DNA of 64,000 nucleotides from Verrucomicrobiota bacterium (lineage in GTDB: Bacteria; Verrucomicrobiota; Kiritimatiellia; SS1-B-03-39; UBA6053). The notes under the pieces were generated by a model. That model was not told the DNA's origin. It made no database searches and saw only the letters and a program-made list of their open reading frames with translations. The translations under genes were made by a program, and so were the position numbers. Positions 21,750 through 37,853 of this stretch are shown here, piece by piece. The stretch is taken from the NCBI GenBank assembly GCA_020831625.1, contig JAFIGD010000002.1, positions 124,001 to 188,000 on the forward strand, read 5' to 3'. Position 1 is the first letter of the stretch. Every line of letters begins with the position of its first letter.

Positions 21750-22901
21750 ATGTGTTCAGCAAAGACGGATGTTTCGGTTTTGGTGTGTATGGATTCGTGG
21801 AAAGGGTCGTTGTCGGCACTGGAGGCGTGTGCGGCGGTGAAGCGGGGTTTGGGACGGGTGCTGAACCCGGAGGGGATCGGGATGTCGCCGATGGCGGACG
21901 GGGGCGAGGGGACTTTGGAGATTGTGGCGGAGCAGACGGGGGCGGAGCGGATCACGCGGCGGGTGTGCGGTCCGTTTGAGGGTCGGGAGACAGACGCTTC
22001 GTTTTTGTGGTGGCCGGAGCGGGGGGAGGCGCTGATTGAAATGGCGGTGTGCGCGGGTTTGCCACTGCTGAGGGAGGAAGAGCGGGATCCGTTGCGGACG
22101 ACGACCTTCGGGGTGGGGGAGCTGGTGCGTGAGGCGGTCGCGTTGGGGGCGCGGAGGATTTCGTTGGCAGTGGGCGGATCGGCGACGGTGGACGGGGGCG
22201 CGGGCCTGGCGGCAGCGCTGGGATGGCGGCTGTTGGATCGGGAGGGGCGGGCGATACCGTTGGGCGGCGGCGGACTGGATGATTTGGTTCGGATTTTGCC
22301 GCCGGCGGATGGAGTCCGGGAGGATGTTGAGGTGGAGGTATGGTGTGATGTGACGAATCCGTTGTTGGGGGAGAAGGGAGCGGCGGCGGTGTTCGGACCG
22401 CAGAAGGGGGCGTCGGTGGAGGATGTGGCGCGGTTGGAGCGCGGTCTGGGCCGGTTCGCGGAGATTGTGAAGCGGGACACGGGGCGCGATGTGGGGTCGG
22501 TTCCGGGCGGGGGCGCGGCGGGCGGACTGGCGGCGGGGGCGCTGGCGTTTTTGGGGGCTCACCTGGTGCCGGGGGTGGAGGCGCTGATGCGGATTACGCA
22601 TCTCGCGGAACGCATGCGTGCGGCGGACTGGGTGGTGACGGGCGAGGGACGCTTTGACGGTCAGAGTCTGGATGGAAAAGTGGTGTCGGGGATTTGCGGG
22701 CTTGCCCGCGGGAGCGGCGCGCGGGTCGCGGTGCTGGCGGGGTCGGTGGCGGTGGAGGAGCGGGTGTGGCGGGCGGCGGGGATTCGCTGTGTGGAGGCGG
22801 CGAACGCGGAGGGGTTGCCGATGGAGGAGGCGATGGCCCGCGCGGAGGAACTGGCAGAAGCGGCCGGGGAGCGGTTGGGGAGGCGGATTCTGGCGGGTTG
22901 A
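21750..22901 (+). CDS. Glycerate kinase, GarK/GlxK family
   Basis: The 383-residue protein belongs to the type 1 glycerate kinase family, which phosphorylates D-glycerate to 2- or 3-phosphoglycerate. Recognisable blocks are DSWKGSLSALEACAAVKRG, SPMADGGEGTLEI, the GGSATVDGGAGLAAALGW loop, CDVTNPLLGEKGAAAVFGPQKGA, GGGAAGGLAAGALAFLGA and VVTGEGRFDGQSLDGKVVSGI. The order and length match the family. It stands alone, with a repeat-bearing region upstream and an intergenic repeat downstream. No glyoxylate genes are visible. Confidence 0.92.
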   Translation: MCSAKTDVSVLVCMDSWKGSLSALEACAAVKRGLGRVLNPEGIGMSPMADGGEGTLEIVAEQTGAERITRRVCGPFEGRETDASFLWWPERGEALIEMAVCAGLPLLREEERDPLRTTTFGVGELVREAVALGARRISLAVGGSATVDGGAGLAAALGWRLLDREGRAIPLGGGGLDDLVRILPPADGVREDVEVEVWCDVTNPLLGEKGAAAVFGPQKGASVEDVARLERGLGRFAEIVKRDTGRDVGSVPGGGAAGGLAAGALAFLGAHLVPGVEALMRITHLAERMRAADWVVTGEGRFDGQSLDGKVVSGICGLARGSGARVAVLAGSVAVEERVWRAAGIRCVEAANAEGLPMEEAMARAEELAEAAGERLGRRILAG

Positions 22902-24022: not shown

Positions 24023-25204
24023 TTAAGCCAGGAGGGTGGCGAGGATTTGGGGCCAGCGGTCGGGGGGGAGGATGCACTGGAGGCCGAGGGGGCCTTCGGC
24101 GGAGATGACGGGGAGGGTGAGGACGGGGAGCCGGGCGAGACTGGCGGGGGAGGTGTAGCGCAGGAGGAGGGCGCGCTCGTCCAGCCGCATGGGCGAAACG
24201 GGGGGCGGATTGGGGCTGACGGGCATGAGCAAAACGTCGTTCGTTTCGAAGAGTTTGTTTAAGGTCTGGATCAATTTCCGTTCGAGATCCCGGGCGGCGT
24301 CGAGTTGTTCGGGGGTCCATGTTGAACCCCGGAGGATGCGGTCGCGGGTGACGGGATCGTAGGCATCGGGTTGGGTGTCGATCCATTCTTTATGCACCTC
24401 GTAGGCTTCGCGGCTTTGAAGGACATTGAAGGCCTGCATGCGGGCTTCACCTTTGAATTCGGGATTGAAGGAGGATTCGGTGACGGTTCCGTTAATGCGG
24501 CGTCGGGCGATGCGGGCGAAGCCGGAGTCTTCGGTCAGGGTGCTGCTAATGCGGAGGGGTTCGGCCTGGGGTTCGGGCAGATCGAGGAGCGCCTGACTGA
24601 AGCGGAGCATGTCGTCGGCGGAGCGGGTGAACCAGCCCACGGAGTCGTAGGAGGGGGAGAGGGGAAAGCATCCGTCGCGGGCCCATTCGTTCGGGGACAT
24701 GCGGAAGCCGAAGATGCCGCAGTAGGCGGCGGGCACGCGGACGGAACCGCCGGTGTCGGTTCCGAAGGCGACGGGCACAAAGCCGCGGGCGACGGCCCAG
24801 GCGCTGCCGCTGCTGGAGCCGCCACTGCAGTGGCCGGGCAGGAAGGGGTGGGGGCAGTCGCCGAAGAAGGCGTTGGCTCCGTCGAGTCCGTAGGCGAAGG
24901 GGTTCATGTGGACTTTGCCGGCGACGGTGAGCCCGGCCTTTTTCGCGGCGGTCACGAGGGCGGCGTCGGGGTGCGGACCGGGGCGCTGGGTGTGTAGAAA
25001 CGTTGAGGAGGCGTCGGTGGGGAGTCCGGCGACATCGTAGTTGTCTTTGAAGAGGCAGAGTTCGCCGGCGAGGGGTTTGCCGGCGGCGGTTTGCAGGGCG
25101 AGGTCGGCTTCCAGATCGGCCTGCGGCCGACAGTGACTGAACACGGCGCGGCGGACCTCGGGGTCCAGGGAGTTCAGCGCGTGATGGAAGCCGTCGGGGG
25201 TCAT
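24023..25204 (-). CDS. Amidase-signature family hydrolase
   Basis: The 393-residue enzyme has the Ser-cisSer-Lys triad of amidase-signature proteins: Lys53 in [12 protein letters not shown], cis-Ser130 in GGSSSGSA and nucleophile Ser154 in [12 protein letters not shown]. It hydrolyses a carboxamide to acid and ammonia; the substrate is not apparent. It is shorter than GatA (about 480), and no gatB/gatC is nearby, so a catabolic role is more likely. It is the last of four minus-strand genes beginning with the tandem GTP cyclohydrolase II-like gene; its start overlaps the FAH gene stop by 4 bp. Confidence 0.9.
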
Positions 25205-26010
25205 GTGAGGGGTTCCTCCAGGACGGGGTTTTCGAGGACACCGATGCCGTCGATCCAGGTGAGGAGCCGGTCGCCGGTTTTGAGGTACACGGGCGGTTTG
25301 CGGGCGGCGCCGACACCGGGCGGGGTGCCGGTGAGGATGACGGTGCCGGGGAGCAGGGTGGTGCTGCCGGCGAGGAAGGCGATGAGTTCGCGGACGGAGA
25401 AGATCATGTCGGCGGTGTTGGATGCCTGCATGCGTTCGCCGTTGAGATCCATGCCCATGGGGAGGTTGTCAGGATCGGGAATTTCGTCGGGGGTGACGAG
25501 GACGGGGCCGAGGGGGCAGAAGGTGTCGAAACTTTTGCCTTTGACCCACTGACCGCCGCTGTAAATTTTTTGCCAGTCGCGGGCGCTGATGTCGTTGGCG
25601 ACGGTGTAGCCGGCCACATAGTCGAGGGCGTTTTCCGGGAGGATGTTCTTGCAGCGTTTGCCGATGACAACCGCGAGTTCGACTTCGTAGTCAACCTGAT
25701 CGCTGGCGAGAAACCGCGGGAGCATGACCGGGGAGAGATGCGCGGTGACGGCGGCGGGATTTTTCATGGTCACCACGGGGTGAGAGGGAAAGGGCTGGTT
25801 CATTTCCTCGGCGTGAGCGCGGTAGTTGACCCCGATGGCGAAGACAACGGGGGCGGGCACCGGGGGGAGCCAGGTGACCGGGTGAACAGGAATTTCCGTG
25901 GGTTCCCATCCGCCGGTTTTCGCGGGGACAGCTTCGACCCATTTATCGCCTTGGGCGATGACGGTGACGGGTTCGGAACGGGTTTGGCAGAGGATGCGGG
26001 CTAATTTCAC
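25201..26010 (-). CDS. Fumarylacetoacetate hydrolase (FAH) family protein
   Basis: The 269-residue protein has the FAH fold signature [13 protein letters not shown], the metal-binding [12 protein letters not shown] and [13 protein letters not shown], and the late [13 protein letters not shown]. Members hydrolyse C-C bonds of acylpyruvates or decarboxylate/tautomerise oxaloacetate-like acids. The start is GTG at 26010. It overlaps the preceding gene's stop (GTGA), and homology begins exactly there (VKLARILC); a start at 26127 would run through the upstream gene. In context it may process a keto-acid product of the nitrogen-removing steps. Confidence 0.88.
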
Positions 26011-27080
26011 GTGGTGTCTCCGGTGGCGCGGGGGCCGGGTTGGTTTAGGTGATAGCCGGGGCCGTCTTCGCCCTTGCCGGGCCAGTCGATGAGGTCGACC
26101 GGCTCCGTCCGCAGGAGGGCTTCGCAAAGGGAATTGAGGCGGGCTTCATAGTGAAAGAGGGCGAGGGGAGGCGGGAGCGGGGATTCGATGATGCGGTATC
26201 CGCCGCCGCGTTCGAAGAGGGGGGTGAGCTGGCGGACAAGGTCCTGCTCATCCGGGTCGGATGTGGTGAAGATCCAGTTGGCCGCGGGCTCGGCGATGTC
26301 CCGCTGGAAGCGGCCGTGGGCGTAGCTGAGGGCGTCGGCCAGCCCCGGGGGACGCACCATGAAGGTCTCCATGCATTTGTAGGCAAGGTTCTGCGCGGTT
26401 TCGGCGCATTCGTTGGTGAAATAAAAGGTGACCCCATTTTTCAGGTCGCGGAGCCAGGCTTCGGGCTCATCGACTGGTGGGGCGGGTGTGGAAAAGAGAT
26501 CGGGGATTTGTTTCAGGGCTTCCGCGCCTCCGAGGCAGCCGGGGGAGAGCGCTTCGCAGAATTGGCAGACGGCGAGCTGGACGCAGACCGGACCGATGAA
26601 GCGGGGGAGGAGGGTGTATTCGTTTTCGAGGGGATGGGTCCAGAGGACTGCGCGTTCTTCGCGGAGAGTGCGCAGCAGATCGGCGCGGTCGGGTTTGCCC
26701 GCGTGTTGCTGACCTTCGGGGGTGGCGGCGGTGAAGAGGATGAGCCCGGAAAAGGCGGGACGGTGGAAGAGGGGAATCCCGGCGTTGGGGGAAAGCCCCT
26801 GGGAGAAGACAGCCAGATAGGGGGCGGGATTCCGCAGGGGATTTAGGGGTCGGTAAAAGCGGGCGAGGGGTTCGAAGCGGGCGGGGATGCCGATGCGCTG
26901 GAGGGTTTGAACCAGCAGCCGGGCGGCGGCTTCGGAGCTGCCGGCGCCGGTGGCGACAAGGCCCCGCTCCGCGATGTCCGCCGGCAAGGGCGGGGCGGGG
27001 TCGGTCAACTGGTCCCGCAGAATGCCCGGGAGGGTTTTGAGGCGTTCACAGACAAGATCATATCCGTTCGCCGGCGGCAT
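26007..27080 (-). CDS. SIS-domain-like protein
   Basis: The 357-residue protein resembles sugar isomerase (SIS) proteins. An early Rossmann-like stretch [22 protein letters not shown] is followed by [18 protein letters not shown], similar to the GxGSS...SQSGxT pattern of phosphosugar isomerases. A second half has ITFYFTN... and a region ending [35 protein letters not shown]. There are no glutaminase domains, so it is not GlmS. A phosphosugar (for example ribose-phosphate) ligand would fit a pathway that passes through a ribonucleotide, but that is inference. It overlaps the FAH start by 4 bp and begins one base after the GCHII-like gene ends. Confidence 0.6.
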
Positions 27081-28655
27081 TTATTCCGACTCCAGGAAGA
27101 TCCATTTTTCGACATTGAAGCCGCTTTGATGCAGGGCCTGGGCGTATTCGCTTTTGCTGACCAGGCTGTTGGGGGAGTTCATGATCATTTGAATGTTGTG
27201 ACTGGGAATGTGGGACTTGAGGATTTCAAACATGCAGCCGTAGTCGCGCTGATCGAAGGCGATGCCCAGTTTGCGGTAGGAGGCCTGGGTGTCAAGACTT
27301 TGTCCGGTCTCGGTGAACATGCGGTCGAGAGCGTAGGCACCGAATCCGGCGCCGCGTCCGTCTTGATAGACGAGCACGATGGCACCGGAGCCGTAGCGGA
27401 CGATGTGCTGGACGGCGCGCTGGTATTTGGCTTTGTTGTCGTCGAAGGTGACCGGGAAGCGGTCGAGAATGGATTCGCTCTGGATGCGGACCACGGGCTG
27501 TTCGTAGCTCTTGGCGGAGCCGTGGGTGAGCACGACCACGTCGTCGCCGCTGACCACGTCAAAGTAGACGTGGACGCGGAACCAGTAGGGTTCGAGGAGC
27601 AGACGGCCGAGCGGATTTTCCGGATCCTCTTTGACGCGGCGTTCGATTTCGGGGGTGTTCACATGCAGGATCAGTCGGCTTCCGCGCAGGGATTCGTACT
27701 GAAACACGGCGGGGTTGGCTCCGAGGGTGGCATCCCGAAGGCCCGATTCGCCCAGCAGGGTTTGCACGGCGTCCTCGTTCATGACAATTTCCTGGTCGAT
27801 GGGTCGGATCGGCAGGAGATAGCTGGCCATGTAGATGAAGCGCTGGGCGGTTTCGAGGCGGCGGGGTTTGAAGGGAATGACCGGCTCCGGAAGTTCCATG
27901 ACCGGCAAGGTGGAGGATTCGGGCCGGGCCAGGGCGTGGCCGGACTCCTGTTTGGACCGGAGGTAGAAGAGATTAAACGGACCGGGCTCGAATTCCAGAT
28001 TCTCCATGCGGCGGACCTTGAGTCCGTTGCGCTTCATGGCATTGACCTTGTCGGGATTGTTGGTCAGAACGATCCATTCGGCTTCAATGCCGAGGATATG
28101 GACGATGTCGGAGATGTTGAGGTACTGCCGATAATCTTTTTTAAGCCCCATGACGCGATAGGCCTCGAAGGTGGAGATGGTCTCTTTGCTGGCCTGCACC
28201 AGCATGCGGTCGCGGGCTTTGCTGGAGTATCCGACCCCGCGGCCCTCCTGAAGCAGATAGAAAAGCACGCCGTTTCCGCTTTGGGCGATGCGCTCCATGG
28301 CGCCTTCGAGCTGCTGGACGCAGTCGCAGTCACAGCCGCCGAGGGTTTCGCTGGTCACACAACTGGAGTGCATGCGGGTGTAGAGCACGTCGGCATCCTG
28401 AATGTTCCCATAGGTCAGAGCGAGGATGTAGCCCTTGTGAATGATGTCCTGAAAAATGCAGGCCTCGAACATTCCGAAGCGGGTATTGACCGCGGTTTTG
28501 GCCAGATATACAGTGGTGCCGTGCATGGGGTGCTCGCCGGACTCCTCGGGGTTCAGCCGGGAGGCGTGTTCGGCGTATTCCCGAAGCCAGAGAGGCAGCG
28601 ATCCTTTTTCTTCAAGCGAGGGTGTCGGGGGAGGGGGAATTGATGTTGTTGTCAT
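27081..28655 (-). CDS. Tandem GTP cyclohydrolase II-like protein; C-terminal copy lacks zinc ligands
   Basis: The 524-residue protein contains two GTP cyclohydrolase II (RibA) domains. Copy 1 (about residues 60-270) keeps the zinc cysteines in SSCVTSETLGGCDCDC, the catalytic region LFYLLQEGRGVGY with its Tyr, and VLTNNPDKV. Copy 2 (about 345-520) keeps the fold (YGSGAIVLVYQDGRGAGF, YRKLGIAFDQRDYG) but reads VRIQSESILDRFP where the zinc motif should be. No ribB, ribD, ribE or ribH is adjacent, so riboflavin synthesis is unlikely. GCHII homologues act in ring-opening catabolism (URC1 in the uracil URC pathway), and the amidase-rich neighbourhood fits that kind of role. Confidence 0.85.
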   Translation of the reverse strand: MTTTSIPPPPTPSLEEKGSLPLWLREYAEHASRLNPEESGEHPMHGTTVYLAKTAVNTRFGMFEACIFQDIIHKGYILALTYGNIQDADVLYTRMHSSCVTSETLGGCDCDCVQQLEGAMERIAQSGNGVLFYLLQEGRGVGYSSKARDRMLVQASKETISTFEAYRVMGLKKDYRQYLNISDIVHILGIEAEWIVLTNNPDKVNAMKRNGLKVRRMENLEFEPGPFNLFYLRSKQESGHALARPESSTLPVMELPEPVIPFKPRRLETAQRFIYMASYLLPIRPIDQEIVMNEDAVQTLLGESGLRDATLGANPAVFQYESLRGSRLILHVNTPEIERRVKEDPENPLGRLLLEPYWFRVHVYFDVVSGDDVVVLTHGSAKSYEQPVVRIQSESILDRFPVTFDDNKAKYQRAVQHIVRYGSGAIVLVYQDGRGAGFGAYALDRMFTETGQSLDTQASYRKLGIAFDQRDYGCMFEILKSHIPSHNIQMIMNSPNSLVSKSEYAQALHQSGFNVEKWIFLESE

Positions 28656-28803: not shown

Positions 28804-29757
28804 ATGAGTGAACATTTTCTGGATCAAAGTGTGGTTGTGAACCGGTGGAATCCGGCGTATCCGCCGCGCTTAACGATTGAGCCGGGGGACACGCTGACGC
28901 TGGAGATGCGGGATGCGAGTGACGGTCAGGTGACTCCGTCGATGACGCTGGCGGAATTTTCGATGATGGACAAAGGGCGGGTGCACGCGCTGACGGGTCC
29001 GGTGGCGGTTGCGGGCGCGGAGCCGGGGGACCGATTAATTCTGGATATTCTGTCCTACGCGCATGCAGGCTGGGCCTGGACGAGCATTATGCCGGGGATG
29101 GGGTTGTTGCCGGAGGATTTTCCGGAGCCGTTTCTGCATATCTGGCGTCTGGAGGCGGATTTTACGGAGAGTATGCCGGGTCTGCGGATTCCGCTTCAAC
29201 CCTTTTGCGGGATTATCGGGGTGCAGCCGCTGATCGACGGTGAATCCCGCACGCGGCCGCCGGGGATTCACGGGGGGAATATGGATGTGCGGCATTTAAC
29301 GGCGGGGAACCGGCTGCACCTGCCGGTGCTGCATCCGGGGGCGGGGCTGTGCGCCGGGGACGCGCACGCGGCGCAGGGCGACGGAGAGGTGTCGATTAAC
29401 GGCATGGAGGCTCCGATGACGGTGAAGCTGCGGGTGGATCTGGTGAAGGATGCGCCGCTGTCGGGTCCGTTTGTGGAATGCCGGGTGCCGCTGGAGCCGG
29501 AGGTGTTCCGCACCTGCCCGCATCACGCCTTTGTGGCGTCGCACGCGGACCCTCGCGAGGCGGCGAAGGAGGCGGTCCGGCGGGCGATTGATTATTTGTG
29601 CCGGCGCGCGGGCCTGAGCCCGGAACAGGCCTACGTGACATGCAGTGTGGTGCTGCGGCTGAAGATCAGTCAGTTGGTGAATCAGCCGGTCACCACCATC
29701 ACGGGCTATTTGCCGGAAGCGATTTTTCTCGAACCCTCCACCCTGTACCCGGGCTGA
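28804..29757 (+). CDS. Acetamidase/formamidase family protein
   Basis: The 317-residue protein belongs to the FmdA/AmdA family, which hydrolyses formamide or acetamide to the acid and ammonia. The diagnostic core is GGNMDVRHLTAGNRLHLPV followed by HPGAGLCAGDAHAAQGDGEVSING, which carries the metal and catalytic residues. The late TCSVVLRLKISQLVN block also fits. It is the first of three tightly packed plus-strand genes (formamidase, DUF3891, RidA). If the neighbouring GCHII-like protein or creatininase-family enzyme releases a formyl-amide, this would be the natural next step, though that is inference. Confidence 0.92.
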   Translation: MSEHFLDQSVVVNRWNPAYPPRLTIEPGDTLTLEMRDASDGQVTPSMTLAEFSMMDKGRVHALTGPVAVAGAEPGDRLILDILSYAHAGWAWTSIMPGMGLLPEDFPEPFLHIWRLEADFTESMPGLRIPLQPFCGIIGVQPLIDGESRTRPPGIHGGNMDVRHLTAGNRLHLPVLHPGAGLCAGDAHAAQGDGEVSINGMEAPMTVKLRVDLVKDAPLSGPFVECRVPLEPEVFRTCPHHAFVASHADPREAAKEAVRRAIDYLCRRAGLSPEQAYVTCSVVLRLKISQLVNQPVTTITGYLPEAIFLEPSTLYPG

Positions 29758-29759
29758 AT

Positions 29760-30587
29760 ATGATACGTCTTGACTGCGAAAAGGATTGGCTGTTGCTGGG
29801 GCACGCGGATCACGCGGCCCTTGCGGGCGAGTTTGCGCGGCACTGGAAAAACGAACGGTTTGCGCCCCCGGAGCCGTTCGCGCATCTTCTGGATGCGGTG
29901 AGCCGTCATGACGACAGTTGGCGGCAGCGGGACGCGGAGCCTGAATTGACGCCGGAGGGTCACCCTTCCGCATTTTCGCGGGAGTTGGTGGGGACGTACG
30001 AGGCCTTTGAGGATATAGATTTGGCGGCTTATCTGGGGGTGCGCGGCGGGGCGACGGAGCAGGCGGCGGCGCGGGATCCGTACAGTGCGGTGCTGATTTC
30101 GATGCACACGGTGAATCTGCTTACGGAACAGGCGGATCCGGACACGCTGGATGCGGAGGGCCGGGACCTGCTGGATGCGTTTGTCGCGGGACAGCGGTCG
30201 CGGCAGGCGGAATTGCTGAAGGATTTGGCCGGACGCGGGATGAAACCTGAGCATCTCATGGCGGAGGCGCTGCGGCGGGGGTTTGAATTTTTGCAGGCCT
30301 GCGACAGCTTTTCGTTGCTGGTCGGGGTGGATTATCCGGAGCGGTCCGCGCTGCGGCATCGGCATCCCTTCGGCGATGGGAACGCGGTGGAGATTGCTTA
30401 CCTCCCATTGGGTGACCGACGATACCGGCTGGATCCCTGGCCGTTGGATGAGCCGGAACTTGTTTTTGACATTCCTTACCGCCGCGTGGCAAAATCGGCG
30501 ATGACCGCGCTGGAACCGTTCCGCGCCGCGTATGCGAACGCGGCGGTGGAGCCGGTGCGGATTGTTGTGACTGGAGAAAGCCTATGA
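29760..30587 (+). CDS. DUF3891 family protein
   Basis: The 275-residue protein starts MIRLDCEKDWLLLGHADHAALAGEFARHW, the normal opening of DUF3891. A helix-rich body follows, with conserved AVSRHDDSWRQ and SMHTVNLL, which give possible metal-binding His and Asp residues in an HD-like arrangement. The family has no established activity that I know of. The ATG at 29760 lies 2 bp after the formamidase stop, and the gene's stop overlaps the RidA start by 4 bp, so it belongs to the same transcript. Confidence 0.75.
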   Translation: MIRLDCEKDWLLLGHADHAALAGEFARHWKNERFAPPEPFAHLLDAVSRHDDSWRQRDAEPELTPEGHPSAFSRELVGTYEAFEDIDLAAYLGVRGGATEQAAARDPYSAVLISMHTVNLLTEQADPDTLDAEGRDLLDAFVAGQRSRQAELLKDLAGRGMKPEHLMAEALRRGFEFLQACDSFSLLVGVDYPERSALRHRHPFGDGNAVEIAYLPLGDRRYRLDPWPLDEPELVFDIPYRRVAKSAMTALEPFRAAYANAAVEPVRIVVTGESL

Positions 30588-31045
30588 GTGCCGAAGAAAA
30601 TCTGAAGCGTCTTGGACTTGAATTGCCCCCGGCCCCGGTGCCGGGGGGCAAATATCTGCCGTTTCGACGGGTGGGGAATCTGGTGTATCTGGCCGGGGTG
30701 ATCAGTGTTTCGGAGGCCGCGGGGGAATGGACCGGGCAGGTGGGGGATGAGCGGACGCTGGAGGACGGCCGGGCGGCGGCCCGGGTCTGCGGGCTGAACG
30801 CGCTGGCGGTGTTGCGGAGTGTCACCGGATCGCTGGACGATGTGAAACAGGTGGTGAATGTGAGCGGATACGTGAACGCGGTGGCCGCGTATGGCCAGAG
30901 TCCCTCGGTGATCAACGGGGCGTCGGAACTGTTTGTGGAGGTGTTCGGCGGGGCGGGAGAACACGCCCGCGCGGCGGTGTCGGTTGCGGGCCTGCCGAAA
31001 AACGCGACGGTGGAGATTCAGGTGGTGGCGGAAATGATGGATTGA
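30584..31045 (+). CDS. RidA (YjgF/YER057c/UK114) family protein
   Basis: RidA proteins deaminate reactive enamine/imine intermediates; RutC of the Rut uracil pathway is one member. The 153-residue protein has the family pattern NLVYLAGVISVSEAAGEWTGQVGDERTLEDGRAAARVCGLNAL (read in parts) and the C-terminal HARAAVSVAGLPKNATVEIQVVA, where the Arg of HARAAVSV corresponds to the catalytic arginine. It overlaps the DUF3891 stop by 4 bp. Its length is slightly above the usual 125-130 residues. An imine-hydrolysis or protective role in the neighbouring nitrogen-releasing pathway is likely. Confidence 0.88.
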   Translation: MSAEENLKRLGLELPPAPVPGGKYLPFRRVGNLVYLAGVISVSEAAGEWTGQVGDERTLEDGRAAARVCGLNALAVLRSVTGSLDDVKQVVNVSGYVNAVAAYGQSPSVINGASELFVEVFGGAGEHARAAVSVAGLPKNATVEIQVVAEMMD

Positions 31046-31716: not shown

Positions 31717-31905
31717 TCAGCTCCTGTTTAAGTGGTCTTTTTTTCGTTGTTCGGCCAGTTTGATTTCTTTGGATGGGGTTTTCTGCGTTTTCTTCTGAAA
31801 TGAGTTTGTCAGAATCACCCATTCGCCATCGTTGAGAAAGCCCAGCAGACGAAACGTATCCCGGCCCGCATTCACTCTGACCTCCCAAATATCATCAGTA
31901 TTCAC
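31717..31905 (-). pseudogene. 5'-truncated HigB/RelE-like toxin remnant (phage Gp49-like)
   Basis: The readable 62 residues (start GTG at 31905) match the C-terminal half of HigB-type toxins: [21 protein letters not shown], then [30 protein letters not shown]. Family members are about 110-120 residues, so the first 45-50 are missing. Homology continues four codons upstream of the GTG (LKKL), then meets the 3' end of the SBF transporter gene, and the two overlap by 11 bp. The toxin is probably inactive. Confidence 0.75.
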
Positions 31906-32881
31906 GAGTTTTTTCAGATAAGTGCGGGATCAACCAGCCGCCGAGAATGAGCTGGGCGGGATGGTACATGAGCAGGGGGAGCAGAATGAGGCTGAGTTCC
32001 ATGTCGGGCGGGAAAATGAGCGCCGAGAGCGGCAGGCCCATGGCCAGGGTTTTCTGACTGCCGCTGAAGAGGGCGGCGATGCGGACGGGCGCGGGAAAGC
32101 CCGCCCAGCCGCTGACGGTCCAAAGACCGGCGCTCATGGTGAGCAGGAGCAGGAGCACGCCGGCCAAGGTCAGCAGCAGCGAGGCGGGCGGAACCTGATT
32201 CCAGGTGTCGCGCAGAAAGCTTTGGCAGAAGGCGACCCAGATGATGTAGAGGATGATGCCGCTGTTCAGGCGTTTGAAGAAGATTTTGTGCAGGTGGTAA
32301 AACGTGCTGAGCTGTCCCCGGGCCGCCTGTCCAAGGGCGAGCGGCAGCAGAATGGTGGTGGCGACATTCAGCAGCGTCTCCGCCAGGGTGACTGCCCCCT
32401 CCGATTCGCCCGCGCCCAGAAATGCGACGCTGAGAGCAGGAGTGATGAACACGCCCAGCACGGCGGAGAGGGTGCAGTTGAAGAGGGCGCCACTGACCGC
32501 GCCGCGGGCCATTCCCGTGAGTGCCACGGCGGAGGTGATGGTGGTGGGGACAAAGCTTAAATAGAGAAATCCCCGGCGGAGATCGGGCTGTTCGAGCAGG
32601 CCCCCGCCGAAGTGGAGGAGTAAAAACGTGAGGAGCGGAAACACCAGATACACCGCGCTCTGCACCAGCAGGTGCAGCCGCCAGTTCACGAGCCCCCGGC
32701 GCAGTTCCTCGCCGGGAAGCTGCACGCCCTGATTGAAGAAAATCAGAAAAATTCCGATGCCGCGCAGGGTGCGGACGGGCAGAACGCTGTCGGGGCCGCC
32801 GAGTTCGGGGATCAACCCCGCCAAAAGCACGATGCACAAAAGACTGAGCACAAATGAATTTGCGGAGAGGAAGCGTTTCAT
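31895..32881 (-). CDS. SBF-like (bile acid:sodium symporter family) transporter
   Basis: The 328-residue protein has about nine to ten membrane helices and the family landmarks [52 protein letters not shown] and [21 protein letters not shown] of the SBF-like (YfeH-type) group. Substrates in this group are organic anions. It is the last gene of the amidohydrolase/creatininase operon (start overlaps the creatininase stop by 4 bp), so it may import the pathway substrate. The last eight residues (SEKTREY and stop) are encoded by DNA derived from the fused toxin remnant, so the native C-terminus has been lost. Confidence 0.85.
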
Positions 32882-33636
32882 GGGAGGGTTCGGATTTGGT
32901 GAAGAAGGTGCTGTACCGCGCCGTCGATCCAGCGTCGACCCTTTTCGGCGGTGGCGCGGGTGGCGTCGCCCATGGTGCCGCTGGGGCTGAGATCGCGGCT
33001 GTGCCAGGCCCGGGTGACGGGGGCGGATTCGGCCTGAACGGCGGTGTCGGGATTTTCGGGGCCGATCCACTGGCAGTCCGCCAGCTCCATGGCGCAGTCT
33101 TTGGGGACAGTGGCGAGGAGAATCGAGGTTTCGTATTCTCCGGCGTGGAGTCCCTGCCGCTGTTCGCGCGGGGGGAGGCCGGTGTCGGGGCACTGGGTGT
33201 CGAGCCAGTGGAGTTGAACGGTTCCTCGCAGGTTCTCTTCCCGCATGAGTGTCCGCAGACAGGGGGTGTTGCCGCCGTGGGTGTTGAGGATGGCCACGCG
33301 TTGAAACCCCCAGGCGCGCAGTTGAAGGAGTGTTGCCTGAAACAGGGCGGCGAGGCTGTCCCGGCCGAGGCTGAGTACTCCGGGAAAGCCGAGGTGCTCA
33401 TTGCTTTTGCCGATGTACAGGGGCGGGGCGATGAGCACCGGTTCGGCGGGTTCCAGTCCCCGGCAAATTCCCCCGAGAAGGATGTCGGCAATCAGCGCGT
33501 CGGTTCCGACCGGCAGGTGCGGCCCGTGCTGTTCGACGGCGGCGACGGGCAGCAGAATCAGAGGGTTTGTTTCCACCAAAGCCGCGCGTTGCGCGGGGGG
33601 CAGGCGCATCAGATTTCGTTCCACGGCGGCGGTCAT
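32878..33636 (-). CDS. Creatininase-family amidohydrolase, metal ligands intact
   Basis: The 252-residue enzyme has EQHGPHLPVGTD (Glu35, His37, Asp46), LNTHGGN (His120) and HAGEYET (Glu169), the dinuclear metal site of the creatininase superfamily. Besides creatininase, this family includes the archaeal ArfB deformylase, which acts on the GTP-derived formamidopyrimidine. The GCHII-like gene in the same cluster makes an ArfB-type formyl-amide hydrolysis an attractive but unproven role. ATG at 33636 overlaps the upstream stop by 4 bp. A start at 33765 would run into the paralogue gene. Confidence 0.9.
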   Translation of the reverse strand: MTAAVERNLMRLPPAQRAALVETNPLILLPVAAVEQHGPHLPVGTDALIADILLGGICRGLEPAEPVLIAPPLYIGKSNEHLGFPGVLSLGRDSLAALFQATLLQLRAWGFQRVAILNTHGGNTPCLRTLMREENLRGTVQLHWLDTQCPDTGLPPREQRQGLHAGEYETSILLATVPKDCAMELADCQWIGPENPDTAVQAESAPVTRAWHSRDLSPSGTMGDATRATAEKGRRWIDGAVQHLLHQIRTLP

Positions 33637-34163
33637 GTGGCGCCCCCTTTGGGTGTGTCCTGATAGACTTCCTGCAGAAGCCGGGCGAGGGTGTCCGCCT
33701 GCGGGTCCATCGCGAGGCGATAGAGGGTGAGTCCGGTGGCGATGCGGGCATCCCGCAGGCCGCAATCCAGTCCGTCGGCCAGGAGCGGGTTCGGGTGCAG
33801 GATCAGCAGCCGGGTGAACCCGGTTTGGGCAACCGAGGCGATCAGTTCCTCAAGGATGCGCCAGGCTTCGGACGCGGGAAGGGTGAAGAGTTGTCCGGGC
33901 TCCTGAGCGGGAAGGTGGCGCAGAGGGGGGAGGACGGGGAAAAGCATGTCGCCGGGCAGACGGGCGAGGGCGTCGCGGAGGACGGGCGCGGCCTGTTGCT
34001 CCTCGGCATCCGGCGGCGTGTCGGGACCGCGATCGATGAGCATGTAGACCGGCAGGACGGGGAGGGCGTTTTTGCGGGCGAGGGCCGCGAGATCCTGTTG
34101 ACGGTATCGGTGCCAGACGGAGGGTGGCTGTGCGGGGAAGAGCGGGTGGAGGGTGTCAGTCAT
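33633..34163 (-). CDS. Degenerate creatininase-family paralogue without metal ligands
   Basis: The 176-residue protein aligns with its downstream neighbour: VLPVYMLIDRGPDTPPDAEE against ILLPVAAVEQHGPHLPVGTD, and LLILHPNPLLADG against VAILNTHGGN. Between these blocks both have a PPL...LP/LG segment and an amphipathic helix. The Glu, His and Asp metal ligands and the NTHGGN histidine are all replaced, so catalysis is not expected. Overlap of 4 bp with the active paralogue and 8 bp with the amidohydrolase suggests co-translation. A structural or regulatory partner subunit is the simplest reading. Confidence 0.6.
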   Translation of the reverse strand: MTDTLHPLFPAQPPSVWHRYRQQDLAALARKNALPVLPVYMLIDRGPDTPPDAEEQQAAPVLRDALARLPGDMLFPVLPPLRHLPAQEPGQLFTLPASEAWRILEELIASVAQTGFTRLLILHPNPLLADGLDCGLRDARIATGLTLYRLAMDPQADTLARLLQEVYQDTPKGGAT

Positions 34164-35412
34164 GGCGGGGCTCCCGCTGATGCAGCACCCTGCCGTTGCG
34201 GACGGTGGCCAGAATGTGTTCGGGCGCGGTGCGGGTGACGAGGGTGGCGGTGAGGTCCCGGCTGTTTTGGAAGCAGGGGGCGAGCAGATCGACGATGATG
34301 AAGTTCGCGGGCAGGCCGGGCGAGAGACTTCCGGGGATTTCGGTTCCCCACGGGCTGTGCCTGAAATTGGCGGTGGCGGTTTTCAGGATTTCGCGCGGGT
34401 GGGGGTTGCGGCCGTCGCCCCGTTGGCTCCGGGCCAGGCGCCAGGTGAAGTCCAGCTCTCGGAAAAGGTCGGGGCCGTTGAGGATGCCGTTGTCGGTGCC
34501 CAGCAGGAGCGGAACGCCGGCCTGGAGGAGCGCGGCCACGGGCGGGAGCGGCAGACCGAGGGCGGCATTGGCACGGGGATTGATCACCGCCGGCTTTCCC
34601 GAGGCGGCGAGCAGCTCGATTTCTTCAGGGCTTGCCGCAGTCAGATGCACAATAAGATCCGGATCATACAGATTTAACGCCTGCTCCAGATCGCCTTTTT
34701 CGGTTCGCTTCAGGCTCAGGGTACGGTAGCCGGCGTTTTCAAGGCAATGCACGGCGCGGACACGGTGATGCGCGGCGGTGATGTCCCGGATTTCGCGCCA
34801 GGCGGCATCGGTGAGGTCGTTCATGGTGCTCTCGGAAAAGCCGTCGGAGATCCGCATCAGTTCCAACAACTCCTCACGGGCTGCGCGGGGAAGCGGAGCC
34901 TGATTGGCGGTCAGTTCCTTCGGCGTAAAGGGGGTGTCCCGCAACTGGCTGAGGATAAAGGAGCGGACACCGCTGACGCGGGAGGCTTCGCGGAGACGGC
35001 GGGCGCCTTCAACGCCCTGTTCACGGAAATCCGCGTGGGCGATGGTGCCGGTGGCGGCCATTTCCTGAAGAAAGCGGGTCATGTGGGCGATGTGGTCTTC
35101 CGCGGTAATGGATTCCAGCGCCCGGTACTTGTAACCATGCGGACGGAAAAAAGCCTCCTCGAGGGTGAGGGCCACGGCGGCTTCGGGCAGGAAGCCATCG
35201 CCGACATGGGTGTGGGCGTTGACAAGGCCGGGAAGGATGCCATAGGCGGGCGGCGGACCGCCGTCATCGGCGCGGGTCAGGATTTCGGTGATCCGCCCCT
35301 CCCTCCAGGCAAAACCCTCGCAAGGGGTTGGATCGAGGGATTCGCCGACCCAGACCAGACAATTTGTCAGGCTTCCGGCGGGTTCTGAGAGGGTGATAAA
35401 CGGTTGTTTCAT
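34156..35412 (-). CDS. Amidohydrolase-superfamily deaminase/hydrolase
   Basis: The 418-residue enzyme has PGLVNAHTHVGD (His67, His69), later histidines in RAVHCLE and LIVHLTAA, and the catalytic Asp in LLLGTDNGIL. This is the layout of the cytosine/guanine deaminase and chlorohydrolase (TrzA/AtzA) branch. Such enzymes remove an amino group or another leaving group from nitrogen heterocycles. It is the first gene of the four-gene operon leading to the SBF transporter. An ideal TATACT -10 lies close to its start with no good -35, which suggests activator control. Confidence 0.85.
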   Translation of the reverse strand: MKQPFITLSEPAGSLTNCLVWVGESLDPTPCEGFAWREGRITEILTRADDGGPPPAYGILPGLVNAHTHVGDGFLPEAAVALTLEEAFFRPHGYKYRALESITAEDHIAHMTRFLQEMAATGTIAHADFREQGVEGARRLREASRVSGVRSFILSQLRDTPFTPKELTANQAPLPRAAREELLELMRISDGFSESTMNDLTDAAWREIRDITAAHHRVRAVHCLENAGYRTLSLKRTEKGDLEQALNLYDPDLIVHLTAASPEEIELLAASGKPAVINPRANAALGLPLPPVAALLQAGVPLLLGTDNGILNGPDLFRELDFTWRLARSQRGDGRNPHPREILKTATANFRHSPWGTEIPGSLSPGLPANFIIVDLLAPCFQNSRDLTATLVTRTAPEHILATVRNGRVLHQREPRHD

Positions 35413-35485: not shown

Positions 35486-35510
35486 TATCGTGTCGGAGAA
35501 AGGATTCATT

Positions 35511-36080
35511 ATGAAGAAATTGCCTGAGTTAAAATTTGTGACCTGGACGGAACTGCATCACATGGGATTTGAGCTTGCGAACCGGCTCCGGGGATTGCAG
35601 CCCGCGTCCTGCACGATCTTATCGGTCGCGCGGGGCGGACATGTTCTGGCCCGCCTGCTGTCGGATTTTCTGGAGTTGCCGATTTACAGTTTCAGTATTC
35701 AGTCCTATCAGGATTTGCAGCAGCATGAGCTTCGGATCACACAGGAACTCAGCGGCGATTTCAAGGGACGGAACGTGTTGCTGGTGGATGAGATTATTGA
35801 CTCCGGACGAACGCTGGTGCGGGCGCTGGATTACTTGAACACCTTTGAGGTGGCGCGGGTGACGAGTGTGTCGCTGCACGTCAAACCGGAGGCGATTCTC
35901 AAGTCGGACTTTTATGTGGAGGAAACGGACAAATGGGTGGTGTATCCGTATGAGGTGCGTGAGACGATTGAGGCTTTGGCTCCGATCTGGTCCGCGGCGG
36001 GGGCTTCAAAGAAAGATTTAGAGGACACCCTGGTCGAGGGTGGTGTGCCTCCGGAATGGGTGGGGGCGTTTTTGGGTTGA
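35511..36080 (+). CDS. Purine-type phosphoribosyltransferase
   Basis: The 189-residue protein is a type I phosphoribosyltransferase with the PRPP-binding motif VLLVDEIIDSGRT (about 89-101), the upstream RGGHVLARLL loop, and the KWVVYPYE segment seen in xanthine/guanine/hypoxanthine-type enzymes (COG2236). It makes a nucleoside monophosphate from a base and PRPP. The ATG at 35511 follows GGAGAAAGG. It is divergent from the amidohydrolase operon across a palindrome-rich promoter, which places it in the same putative regulon, where it could activate a heterocyclic base before ring opening. Confidence 0.85.
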   Translation: MKKLPELKFVTWTELHHMGFELANRLRGLQPASCTILSVARGGHVLARLLSDFLELPIYSFSIQSYQDLQQHELRITQELSGDFKGRNVLLVDEIIDSGRTLVRALDYLNTFEVARVTSVSLHVKPEAILKSDFYVEETDKWVVYPYEVRETIEALAPIWSAAGASKKDLEDTLVEGGVPPEWVGAFLG

Positions 36081-36149: not shown

Positions 36150-37853
36150 ATGCGGATGAATAAAACAACCCCACCCATGCTTTCGATTCGTTTGCCGCCT
36201 GACCACAACGTTTCCTGTGCGCCTCACACGCCGGTTCGGGAGGTGTTGGCGGAGGCGGTTGAGCCGGTGTCGGGGCTGCCCTGGCTGGGGGCGCTGGTGA
36301 ACAATGATGTCTGCTCGCTGGATTATCCGCTGTGTGCGGATGGCGAAGTGCGCCCGGTCAGTTTTTTGAACCGGCACGGTTCCCGTATTTACCGCCGGAC
36401 CCTTTCATTTCTGCTGGCAAAAACGATCCGGAGCTGTTTTTCGGAGGCCAAATTTTCGGTGGAGCACAGTCTGGGAAACGGATATTACTGTTCGTTTCAG
36501 ATGAACGGCAATCCGGGGATCCGTTCCCACGAGTTGGAGAAGATTCGGACGTCCATGGAGGATTTGATTGCCCGGAATGTGCCGATCACCCGCCGTCAGG
36601 TGGCGTATGGCGACGCGGAGCGCTGGCTGATTGAGCAGGGCTTGTTGGACAAGCTGAATTTGCTTCAGTACCGGAATCCACCGATGATCACGCTTTTTGA
36701 ATGCGAAAAATTCGCCGAGGCGGCGTTGGGTGTTCTCGCTCCCTCGACCGGGGCCGTGCCGATGTTCCGTCTTCTGCCCTATGAGCCGGGCTTTGTGTTG
36801 CAGTTTCCTGACTGGGACGAAGAGAAGAAGTGCCTGGTTTTGAAAACGTTCGAACGATTGCCGCATTTGTTTGAAATTTTTCAGGAACATAAAACCTGGG
36901 GCCGGGTGATCGGCGTGAACACGGTCGGGGATTTGAACACGTTGACCGCACAACGGCAGGAAAAAGGTTTAATTCGGATTTCCGAGACGCTTCACGAAAA
37001 AAAGCTGGGGCATCTTGCGGATGAAATCGCCCTGCACCGCGACCGGCTCAAATGGATTCTGATCGCCGGCCCGAGTTCGGCGGGAAAAACCACCACCTCT
37101 AAACGGCTGATGGTTCATTTGCGGGTCAACGGACTGCGCCCGGTCCGGCTGGAGCTGGACAATTATTTCTGCGGACTGGACCGCACGCCGAAACATCCGG
37201 ACGGCTCGTATGACTTTGAGCATATCGAGGCGATTGATTTGGCCCTGCTGAATGATCATCTTTCCCGGCTGGACCGTCTGGAGACCATCGAACTGCCCAC
37301 GTTTAATTTCCGGGAGGGGCGCCCGGAATTTCTGGGAAACACTCTGACACTGGAGGAGGATCAGGTGGTGGTGATTGAAGGAATCCACGCCTTAAATCCC
37401 CGTTTGACCGATCATATCCCCGCCGCGCACAAGTACCGGGTGTTTGTGAGTCCGCTGACCCAGCTCAAACTGGACAACAACAACCGGCTGTCCACCACCG
37501 ATCTCCGGCTGATCCGGCGTATTGTCCGCGACGCCACCTCCCGCGGGCATGACGCGCTGGGCACCCTGAGGATGTGGCCGAGTGTGCGTCTGGGCGAGAA
37601 ACGGTGGATTTTTCCGTTTCAACAGGAGGCGGATGTGACCTTCAACAGCAGTCTGGATTACGAGTTGGCGGTGCTGAAGCCGTTTGTTGAGCCGCTGCTG
37701 CACGCGGTGAAACCCACGGAGGAGGTGTACGGTGAAGCCCGCCGCCTGCAGGATTTTCTGGCGATGGTGGTGGGCGCCTCCCCTCAGGATGTGCCGCCGC
37801 ACTCGCTGTTGCGCGAGTTTATCGGAGGCAGTGTGTATGAGGCGGACGCATGA
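36150..37853 (+). CDS. Nucleoside kinase with TGS/SAD-like N-terminus (uridine kinase-type)
   Basis: The 567-residue protein has three parts. An N-terminal ubiquitin-like/TGS-type region (to about 80) is followed by a ThrRS editing-like region (RRTLSFLLAKTIRSCFSEAKFSVEHSLGNGYYC). The C-terminal uridine kinase/phosphoribulokinase domain has Walker A GPSSAGKT (307-314), the LDNYFCGLDRTPKHPDGSYDFEHIEAID region and VIEGIHALNP. Proteins of this architecture are annotated as nucleoside kinases in several anaerobe-rich phyla. GGAGGA precedes the ATG. The gene overlaps the Hsp15-like gene by 4 bp and follows the phosphoribosyltransferase by 69 bp, so nucleotide salvage is a consistent theme. Confidence 0.85.
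   Translation: MRMNKTTPPMLSIRLPPDHNVSCAPHTPVREVLAEAVEPVSGLPWLGALVNNDVCSLDYPLCADGEVRPVSFLNRHGSRIYRRTLSFLLAKTIRSCFSEAKFSVEHSLGNGYYCSFQMNGNPGIRSHELEKIRTSMEDLIARNVPITRRQVAYGDAERWLIEQGLLDKLNLLQYRNPPMITLFECEKFAEAALGVLAPSTGAVPMFRLLPYEPGFVLQFPDWDEEKKCLVLKTFERLPHLFEIFQEHKTWGRVIGVNTVGDLNTLTAQRQEKGLIRISETLHEKKLGHLADEIALHRDRLKWILIAGPSSAGKTTTSKRLMVHLRVNGLRPVRLELDNYFCGLDRTPKHPDGSYDFEHIEAIDLALLNDHLSRLDRLETIELPTFNFREGRPEFLGNTLTLEEDQVVVIEGIHALNPRLTDHIPAAHKYRVFVSPLTQLKLDNNNRLSTTDLRLIRRIVRDATSRGHDALGTLRMWPSVRLGEKRWIFPFQQEADVTFNSSLDYELAVLKPFVEPLLHAVKPTEEVYGEARRLQDFLAMVVGASPQDVPPHSLLREFIGGSVYEADA

Follow-up and report, generated by a model that had tools for sequence, protein, structure and literature searches.

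The window analyzed here is the whole stretch of 64,000 nucleotides, and in its middle part a gene for a tandem GTP cyclohydrolase II (GCHII)-like protein is surrounded by genes for hydrolases, a transporter, and a purine-type phosphoribosyltransferase (Table 1). The GCHII fold is that of the enzyme opening vitamin B2 (riboflavin) synthesis. On the minus strand, the genes run in the order tandem, SIS, FAH, and amidase, with the amidase gene being the last, and the GTG at 26010 where the FAH gene starts overlaps the stop codon of the SIS gene.

Table 1. Genes and domains at the tandem GCHII locus (positions in the window).
Feature	Positions	Strand	Remarks
Amidase (amidase-signature family)	24023..25204	(-)	PF01425; PRK08310/AtzE-like
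FAH family protein	25201..26010	(-)	PF01557, 250.9 bits; ORF listed to 26127
SIS-fold protein	26007..27080	(-)	357 aa; start codon directly abuts tandem stop
Tandem GTP cyclohydrolase II-like protein	27081..28655	(-)	524 aa; PF00925 twice; AlphaFold2 model; family of ~80 loci
Half 2, zinc-less GCHII-like domain	27093..27590	(-)	Residues ~356-521
Half 1, zinc-type GCHII domain	27930..28508	(-)	Residues ~50-242
FmdA/AmdA (formamidase/acetamidase) family protein	28804..29757	(+)	Divergent from tandem gene; PF03069, 192 bits
DUF3891 protein	29754..30587	(+)	PF13030
Rid (YjgF/RutC-type) family protein	30584..31045	(+)	PF14588, PF01042
SBF-like transporter	31895..32884	(-)	PF13593, 273.8 bits
Creatininase-family hydrolase	32878..33636	(-)	PF02633, 198.8 bits
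Degenerate creatininase-like protein	33633..34163	(-)	176 aa; hhalign to creatininase family, E = 9.5e-16
Amidohydrolase-superfamily deaminase/hydrolase	34156..35412	(-)	PF01979; PRK07213, 211.5 bits
Xanthine-type purine phosphoribosyltransferase-like (XPRT-like) protein	35490..36080	(+)	PF00156

For the creatininase-family hydrolase, the best NCBIfam model is MftE (120.6 bits), with ArfB reaching 17.7 bits, both under their cut-offs. The 176-aa protein next to it has no Pfam match, and the two make up a second pair of a catalytic and a degenerate copy in the same cluster. The XPRT-like protein scores 61.5 bits against PRK09177 and 50.7 bits against the HGPRTase model, both under the curated cut-offs, as is likewise the case for the HPRT-like genes. 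The gene directly after the XPRT-like one (36150-37853, +) encodes 567 aa and includes a phosphoribulokinase/uridine kinase domain. Also, glycerate kinase genes are found near the tandem gene or directly divergent from it, in the window (21750-22901, +) and in two related loci (L052:6613-7788 and L128:6664-7845), which would fit the use of an end product with three carbons. A 578-aa open frame runs antisense to the tandem gene (26907-28643, +), and comparable antisense frames lie over the homologues; this frame is most likely an artefact of codon composition. Scanned against Rfam, neither the window nor any of nine related loci showed a purine riboswitch or another element.

Two halves of the tandem protein

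The preliminary description of this DNA proposed a duplicated GCHII domain, and the comparison of the two halves bears this out. PF00925 (GCHII) exceeds its cut-off of 23.3 in each half, with 128.4 and 58.7 bits, and profile-profile alignment gives E = 8e-16 between half 1 and half 2 and E = 2.6e-15 between half 2 and RibA. Moreover, in the AlphaFold2 model of the protein, which was built from 53 homologues and is confident (pLDDT 87.4, pTM 0.86), the order of strands and helices in residues 357-520 is almost one-for-one that of residues 61-218. A Foldseek search with this model returns E. coli RibA (PDB code: 2bz0) as the top match, with a TM score on the target of 0.92 for the best half aligned only, followed at lower ranks by UTP cyclohydrolase (PDB codes: 7eev and 7ej3) and RibBX (PDB code: 6mnz).

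A comparison with profile models of RibA and URC1 had been suggested, and its outcome is divided; the pointers to URC1 and to XMP as a substrate were apt. Resemblance to RibA stands at the level of the broader RibA subfamily, where the model NF001591 gives 178.4 bits summed over both halves (cut-off of 148), but not at that of the RibA equivalog domain TIGR00505, where 148.3 bits fall under the cut-off of 205.85. For the PRK07198/NF005536 equivalog, whose length, along with the match to 7eev/7ej3, leads us to take it as the URC1 model, the score is 23.3 bits, far under the cut-off of 403. The tandem protein is thus a member of the GCHII superfamily that fails both the RibA (TIGR00505) and the URC1 equivalog tests. 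Among solved structures, the closest to half 1 by sequence is RibA, with 147 bits, as compared with 29.5 bits for UTP cyclohydrolase.

The three zinc cysteines attributed to the first domain are indeed there, C99, C110, and C112 being invariant in 53 of 53 homologues. E137 (E92 in E. coli), D174 (D126), R176 (R128), and K203 (K154 in E. coli RibA) are invariant as well, and the QEGR motif of RibA is retained. However, the catalytic tyrosine, whose region had been described as kept too, is not there: R150, an arginine in all 53 homologues, stands where E. coli RibA has Tyr105, whereas the eight RibBA controls, with the RibBA of the same genome among them, all have the tyrosine. In Streptomyces GCHIIs, changes at this tyrosine cause the enzyme to halt at a formylated product. 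R150 could mean an altered or lost hydrolytic chemistry, which would speak against the ring opening proposed below.

Half 2 is zinc-less, as had been described: the first zinc cysteine is replaced by the invariant S395 and the remaining two are lost. Nevertheless, R390, S393, E394, S395, D432, and G433 are invariant in the 53 sequences, as is the motif D468-x-R470-D471-Y472, which aligns with the nucleotide-site region of RibA. Since these residues persist though the zinc ligands are gone, half 2 is under strong constraint and would be a partner or binding domain and not debris, which agrees with the role as a binding or structural partner suggested for it before.

The tandem arrangement, in which one half has no zinc motif, is genuine and conserved. 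Relatives occur in about 80 loci, with identities of about 38-95% and nearly all above 50%, so the arrangement is neither chance nor a local accident. The family belongs mainly to Opitutia-type Verrucomicrobiota (Opitutaceae, Puniceicoccaceae, Coraliomargarita, and Cerasicoccus), and its presence in the phylum is patchy (16 of 388 genomes). Tandems with 35-47% identity and the two-half layout are also present in 5 of 46 genomes of a second phylum; in one of these loci (L136:836-2413, -) a further tandem GCHII adjoins the first, and in it the better-matching zinc-type half is the second one. On plasmids, tblastn detected no complete tandem, as at no place was 80% of the query covered. In the tree, half 1, half 2, and RibA make up three separate clades, with half 2 on its own long branch. 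Because each of them forms one clade, the tandem looks like the outcome of a single old event, a reading for which the long branches call for caution.

The closeness of half 1 to RibA among solved structures, together with the zinc ligands and the equivalents of D126, R128, and K154, would be expected if the protein were a second GCHII of the riboflavin type, with half 1 making the ordinary product for flavins and half 2 being structural. Nonetheless, the same genome carries a separate full RibBA of normal type, and the tandem is therefore probably not a riboflavin enzyme. Moreover, the arginine at the Tyr105 position in all members and the separate clades speak against this role, and no riboflavin gene was recognized among the recurrent neighbors, purine and hydrolase genes being found instead. 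A riboflavin function is thus improbable, and it was discarded as the main reading on account of the RibBA, the lost Tyr105, and the separate clade.

SIS-fold partner and gene neighborhood

With E values of ~1e-9, Foldseek matches the AlphaFold2 model of the SIS-fold protein (pLDDT of 93.7) to NagB-II and to the isomerase domain of GlmS. By sequence, the protein of the window matches no Pfam family notably; PF01380 does not match it even at an E value of 10, and weakly matches 9 of 41 homologues (best E of 0.0019). In these 41 homologues, a GxGSS loop and K235-x-x-E238 ... H255-G are invariant, and the latter resembles, as judged by eye, the K-N-K-E ... K-H-G-P of GlmS. Because hhalign of the protein with the GlmS of its own genome failed (E of 0.22, no active-site mapping), the mapping of the active site rests on the fold match and on motif spacing by eye. 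From the model, the protein is predicted to be a phosphosugar isomerase/deglycase-like partner.

The association of both genes extends to their distribution. The SIS profile is found in 15 of the 388 genomes of the phylum, and all 15 are within the 16 tandem genomes (hypergeometric probability of 4e-26, in which shared ancestry is ignored). The two genes are mostly adjacent, although in one genome (G266) they lie some kilobases apart and in another (G298) on separate contigs; in the second phylum, an SIS homologue adjoins the tandem in three of four fetched contigs. The sole sampled tandem genome without the SIS protein (G088, locus L047) also misses DUF3891, though a permease of the purine type lies immediately upstream of its tandem gene. 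The SIS profile has no match either in the 'Proteobacteria' genome of L123, whose phylum relatives have the SIS gene beside the tandem. About one-third of the tandem neighborhoods show no visible SIS gene, with short contigs being part of the cause.

Across 86 loci, the transport genes near the tandem encode an AzgA-type permease (30 loci), a TonB receptor (20), and a purine nucleoside permease (NUP; 17), and those for salvage encode adenosine deaminase (18), HPRT-like proteins (15), and adenine deaminase (7). Others are Rid (24), amidase (19), a second amidohydrolase (18), and DUF3891 (14), with creatininase (9), FmdA (7), and FAH (6) being rarer. The first of these permeases matches PF00860, the xanthine/uracil permease family, and its assignment as AzgA-type is our own reading of the sequence. 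The Rid gene alone is uninformative since it is present in 75 of the 388 genomes. DUF3891 is found in 16 of them, 14 being tandem genomes, also when the genes are unlinked. Where the hydrolase cluster is unlinked from the tandem it is still one unit, with adenine deaminase in four of eight loci (L141-L144). In the second phylum, genes of the 5-formyltetrahydrofolate cyclo-ligase family lie by the tandem and SIS genes (L134:817-1581, L135:8707-9474, and L136:4546-5307, the last one assigned by sequence similarity only) and possibly serve one-carbon handling.

Based on these data, the tandem gene belongs to a system of several genes, in which the SIS partner looks obligate and the neighborhood is one of purine salvage and catabolism. 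This context, which the preliminary description had missed, tells much more about function than the tandem architecture does. The enzymes of classical purine degradation do not accompany it: xanthine dehydrogenase (TIGR02963) is over its curated cut-off in none of 18 tandem genomes, with no match at all in 13 and partial FeS-type matches in 5, and allantoinase (TIGR03178) is over its cut-off in none, the matches under it probably being dihydroorotases.

This neighborhood also bears on whether the protein could be a member or an equivalent of URC1 (UTP cyclohydrolase) in a cluster that degrades uracil. The logic would be the same, with a GCHII-fold enzyme beside a phosphoribosyltransferase, and UTP cyclohydrolase is among the fold matches; but the neighbors are adenine and adenosine deaminases and purine-type phosphoribosyltransferases, and half 1 is far closer to RibA than to UTP cyclohydrolase, as the scores given above indicate, with PRK07198 not approaching its cut-off. 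A role in uracil degradation is therefore improbable, and it was not favored because of the weak similarity to UTP cyclohydrolase. DUF1688 (URC4) is found in none of the 18 tandem genomes, and the control genomes gave no match either.

GCHII paralogues begin several secondary pathways, and with an SBF transporter and TonB receptors close by, the tandem might catalyze the entry step to a pterin, a deazapurine, or a toxoflavin-like product that the neighbors tailor. Nonetheless, the neighbors are importers, deaminases, and hydrolases, and no ligase, methyltransferase, or oxidoreductase was recognized among the recurrent ones. Moreover, in one outlier genome (G366, locus L146), FAH, DUF3891, amidohydrolase, FmdA, Rid, and amidase genes make up a cluster without the tandem or the SIS gene, adjoined by two NMT1/THI5-like binding proteins. 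Proteins of this type often bind pyrimidines, and the ligand here is presumed to be one, which fits a cluster degrading an imported aminopyrimidine. Biosynthesis has, in our estimation, little chance of being the function of this system.

Proposed route of purine degradation

Taken together, we consider that purine catabolism here probably has its first committed step in the tandem GCHII-fold enzyme, which would open the imidazole ring of a purine nucleotide, with this substrate being deduced from the neighbors only. Whether the genes constitute an undescribed purine degradation at the nucleotide level is in our judgment an even bet. It would combine salvage of the base, ring opening by the tandem, and recovery of pentose phosphate by the SIS deglycase, as a mirror image of URC, and would proceed without xanthine dehydrogenase or uric acid. 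In the open-licence PMC literature, we found no description of a tandem GCHII, of a purine-nucleotide cyclohydrolase, or of such a pathway.

Each enzymatic step of this route is one that we infer. Purine bases would be imported and deaminated, and an HPRT or XPRT-like enzyme would convert them with PRPP to IMP, GMP, or XMP, the candidate bases being hypoxanthine, xanthine, and guanine. The nucleotide would possibly be further phosphorylated before ring opening, because the half-1 residues matching the triphosphate site of RibA are kept. Then, half 1 would hydrolyze the imidazole ring, whereas half 2 would be a pseudo-enzyme partner, completing the fold or binding the nucleotide. That half 2 is instead a decaying copy with no role, as the loss of all three zinc ligands and its own long branch could suggest, is very unlikely given its residues invariant in 53 sequences (R390 to Y472, listed above) and the two-half layout in a second phylum.

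After ring opening, the SIS protein would cleave the (phospho)ribosylamine, freeing the pyrimidine and returning pentose phosphate, which is the role of URC4 in URC. Degradation of the aminopyrimidine, with loss of formyl and amino groups and opening of the ring, would fall to the creatininase or FmdA, Rid, amidohydrolase, amidase, and FAH proteins. With Tyr105 replaced, the enzyme may leave the formyl group on the product of ring opening, and the creatininase-family protein would be the candidate deformylase, given that a formamidase of this family is known to act on a formylated GCHII-type product (PMC9478397); this is the least certain of the sub-steps.

If this proposal is true, hydrolytic opening of the nucleotide ring would need neither a molybdenum enzyme nor oxygen, and it would explain a possible use of purines by Opitutia-type bacteria. 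To our knowledge, the known routes of purine degradation act on the base, with xanthine or uric acid as intermediates. Moreover, the GCHII fold would serve ring-opening catabolism of purines and pyrimidines alike, and likely functions would be available for two families that have none, the SIS-fold partner and DUF3891. The tandem would also lend itself well to the study of an enzyme fused to a pseudo-enzyme copy of itself.

Finally, parts of this system can be compared with known ones. Half 1 shares with RibA the fold, the zinc cysteines, the equivalents of D126, R128, and K154, and the QEGR motif; the tandem differs from it in having two domains per chain, the second one zinc-less, an arginine for Tyr105, a clade of its own, and a purine-catabolic instead of a riboflavin context. 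RibBX has a GCHII-like second domain too, which we take to be degenerate, and in Arabidopsis RIBA2 the zinc-binding residues are lost in the GCHII part (PMC3509567), but both pair this part with a RibB domain and not with a second GCHII. The SIS-fold partner has the double-SIS fold of the GlmS isomerase domain and NagB-II, although with ~14% identity and no glutaminase domain. In the riboflavin pathway, BrbF, a formamidase of the creatininase family, deformylates the formylated GCHII product (PMC9478397); the protein at 32878-33636 is of the same family, being, however, a family-level relative of BrbF/ArfB only, with MftE as its best model. The closest parallel in logic is the URC uracil pathway of yeast and bacteria, composed of UPRT, a GCHII-family enzyme (UTP cyclohydrolase by the name given in 7eev and 7ej3), and a DUF1688 protein acting on ribosylurea (PMC2174524, PMC7530994; Zhang et al. 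2021, as cited in PMC12507026). As with URC1 (urg1 in fission yeast), a GCHII-fold enzyme stands with a phosphoribosyltransferase in the catabolism of a base, whereas the tandem is remote from it in sequence, lies in a purine-type neighborhood, and has as its partner an SIS-fold protein and not DUF1688.
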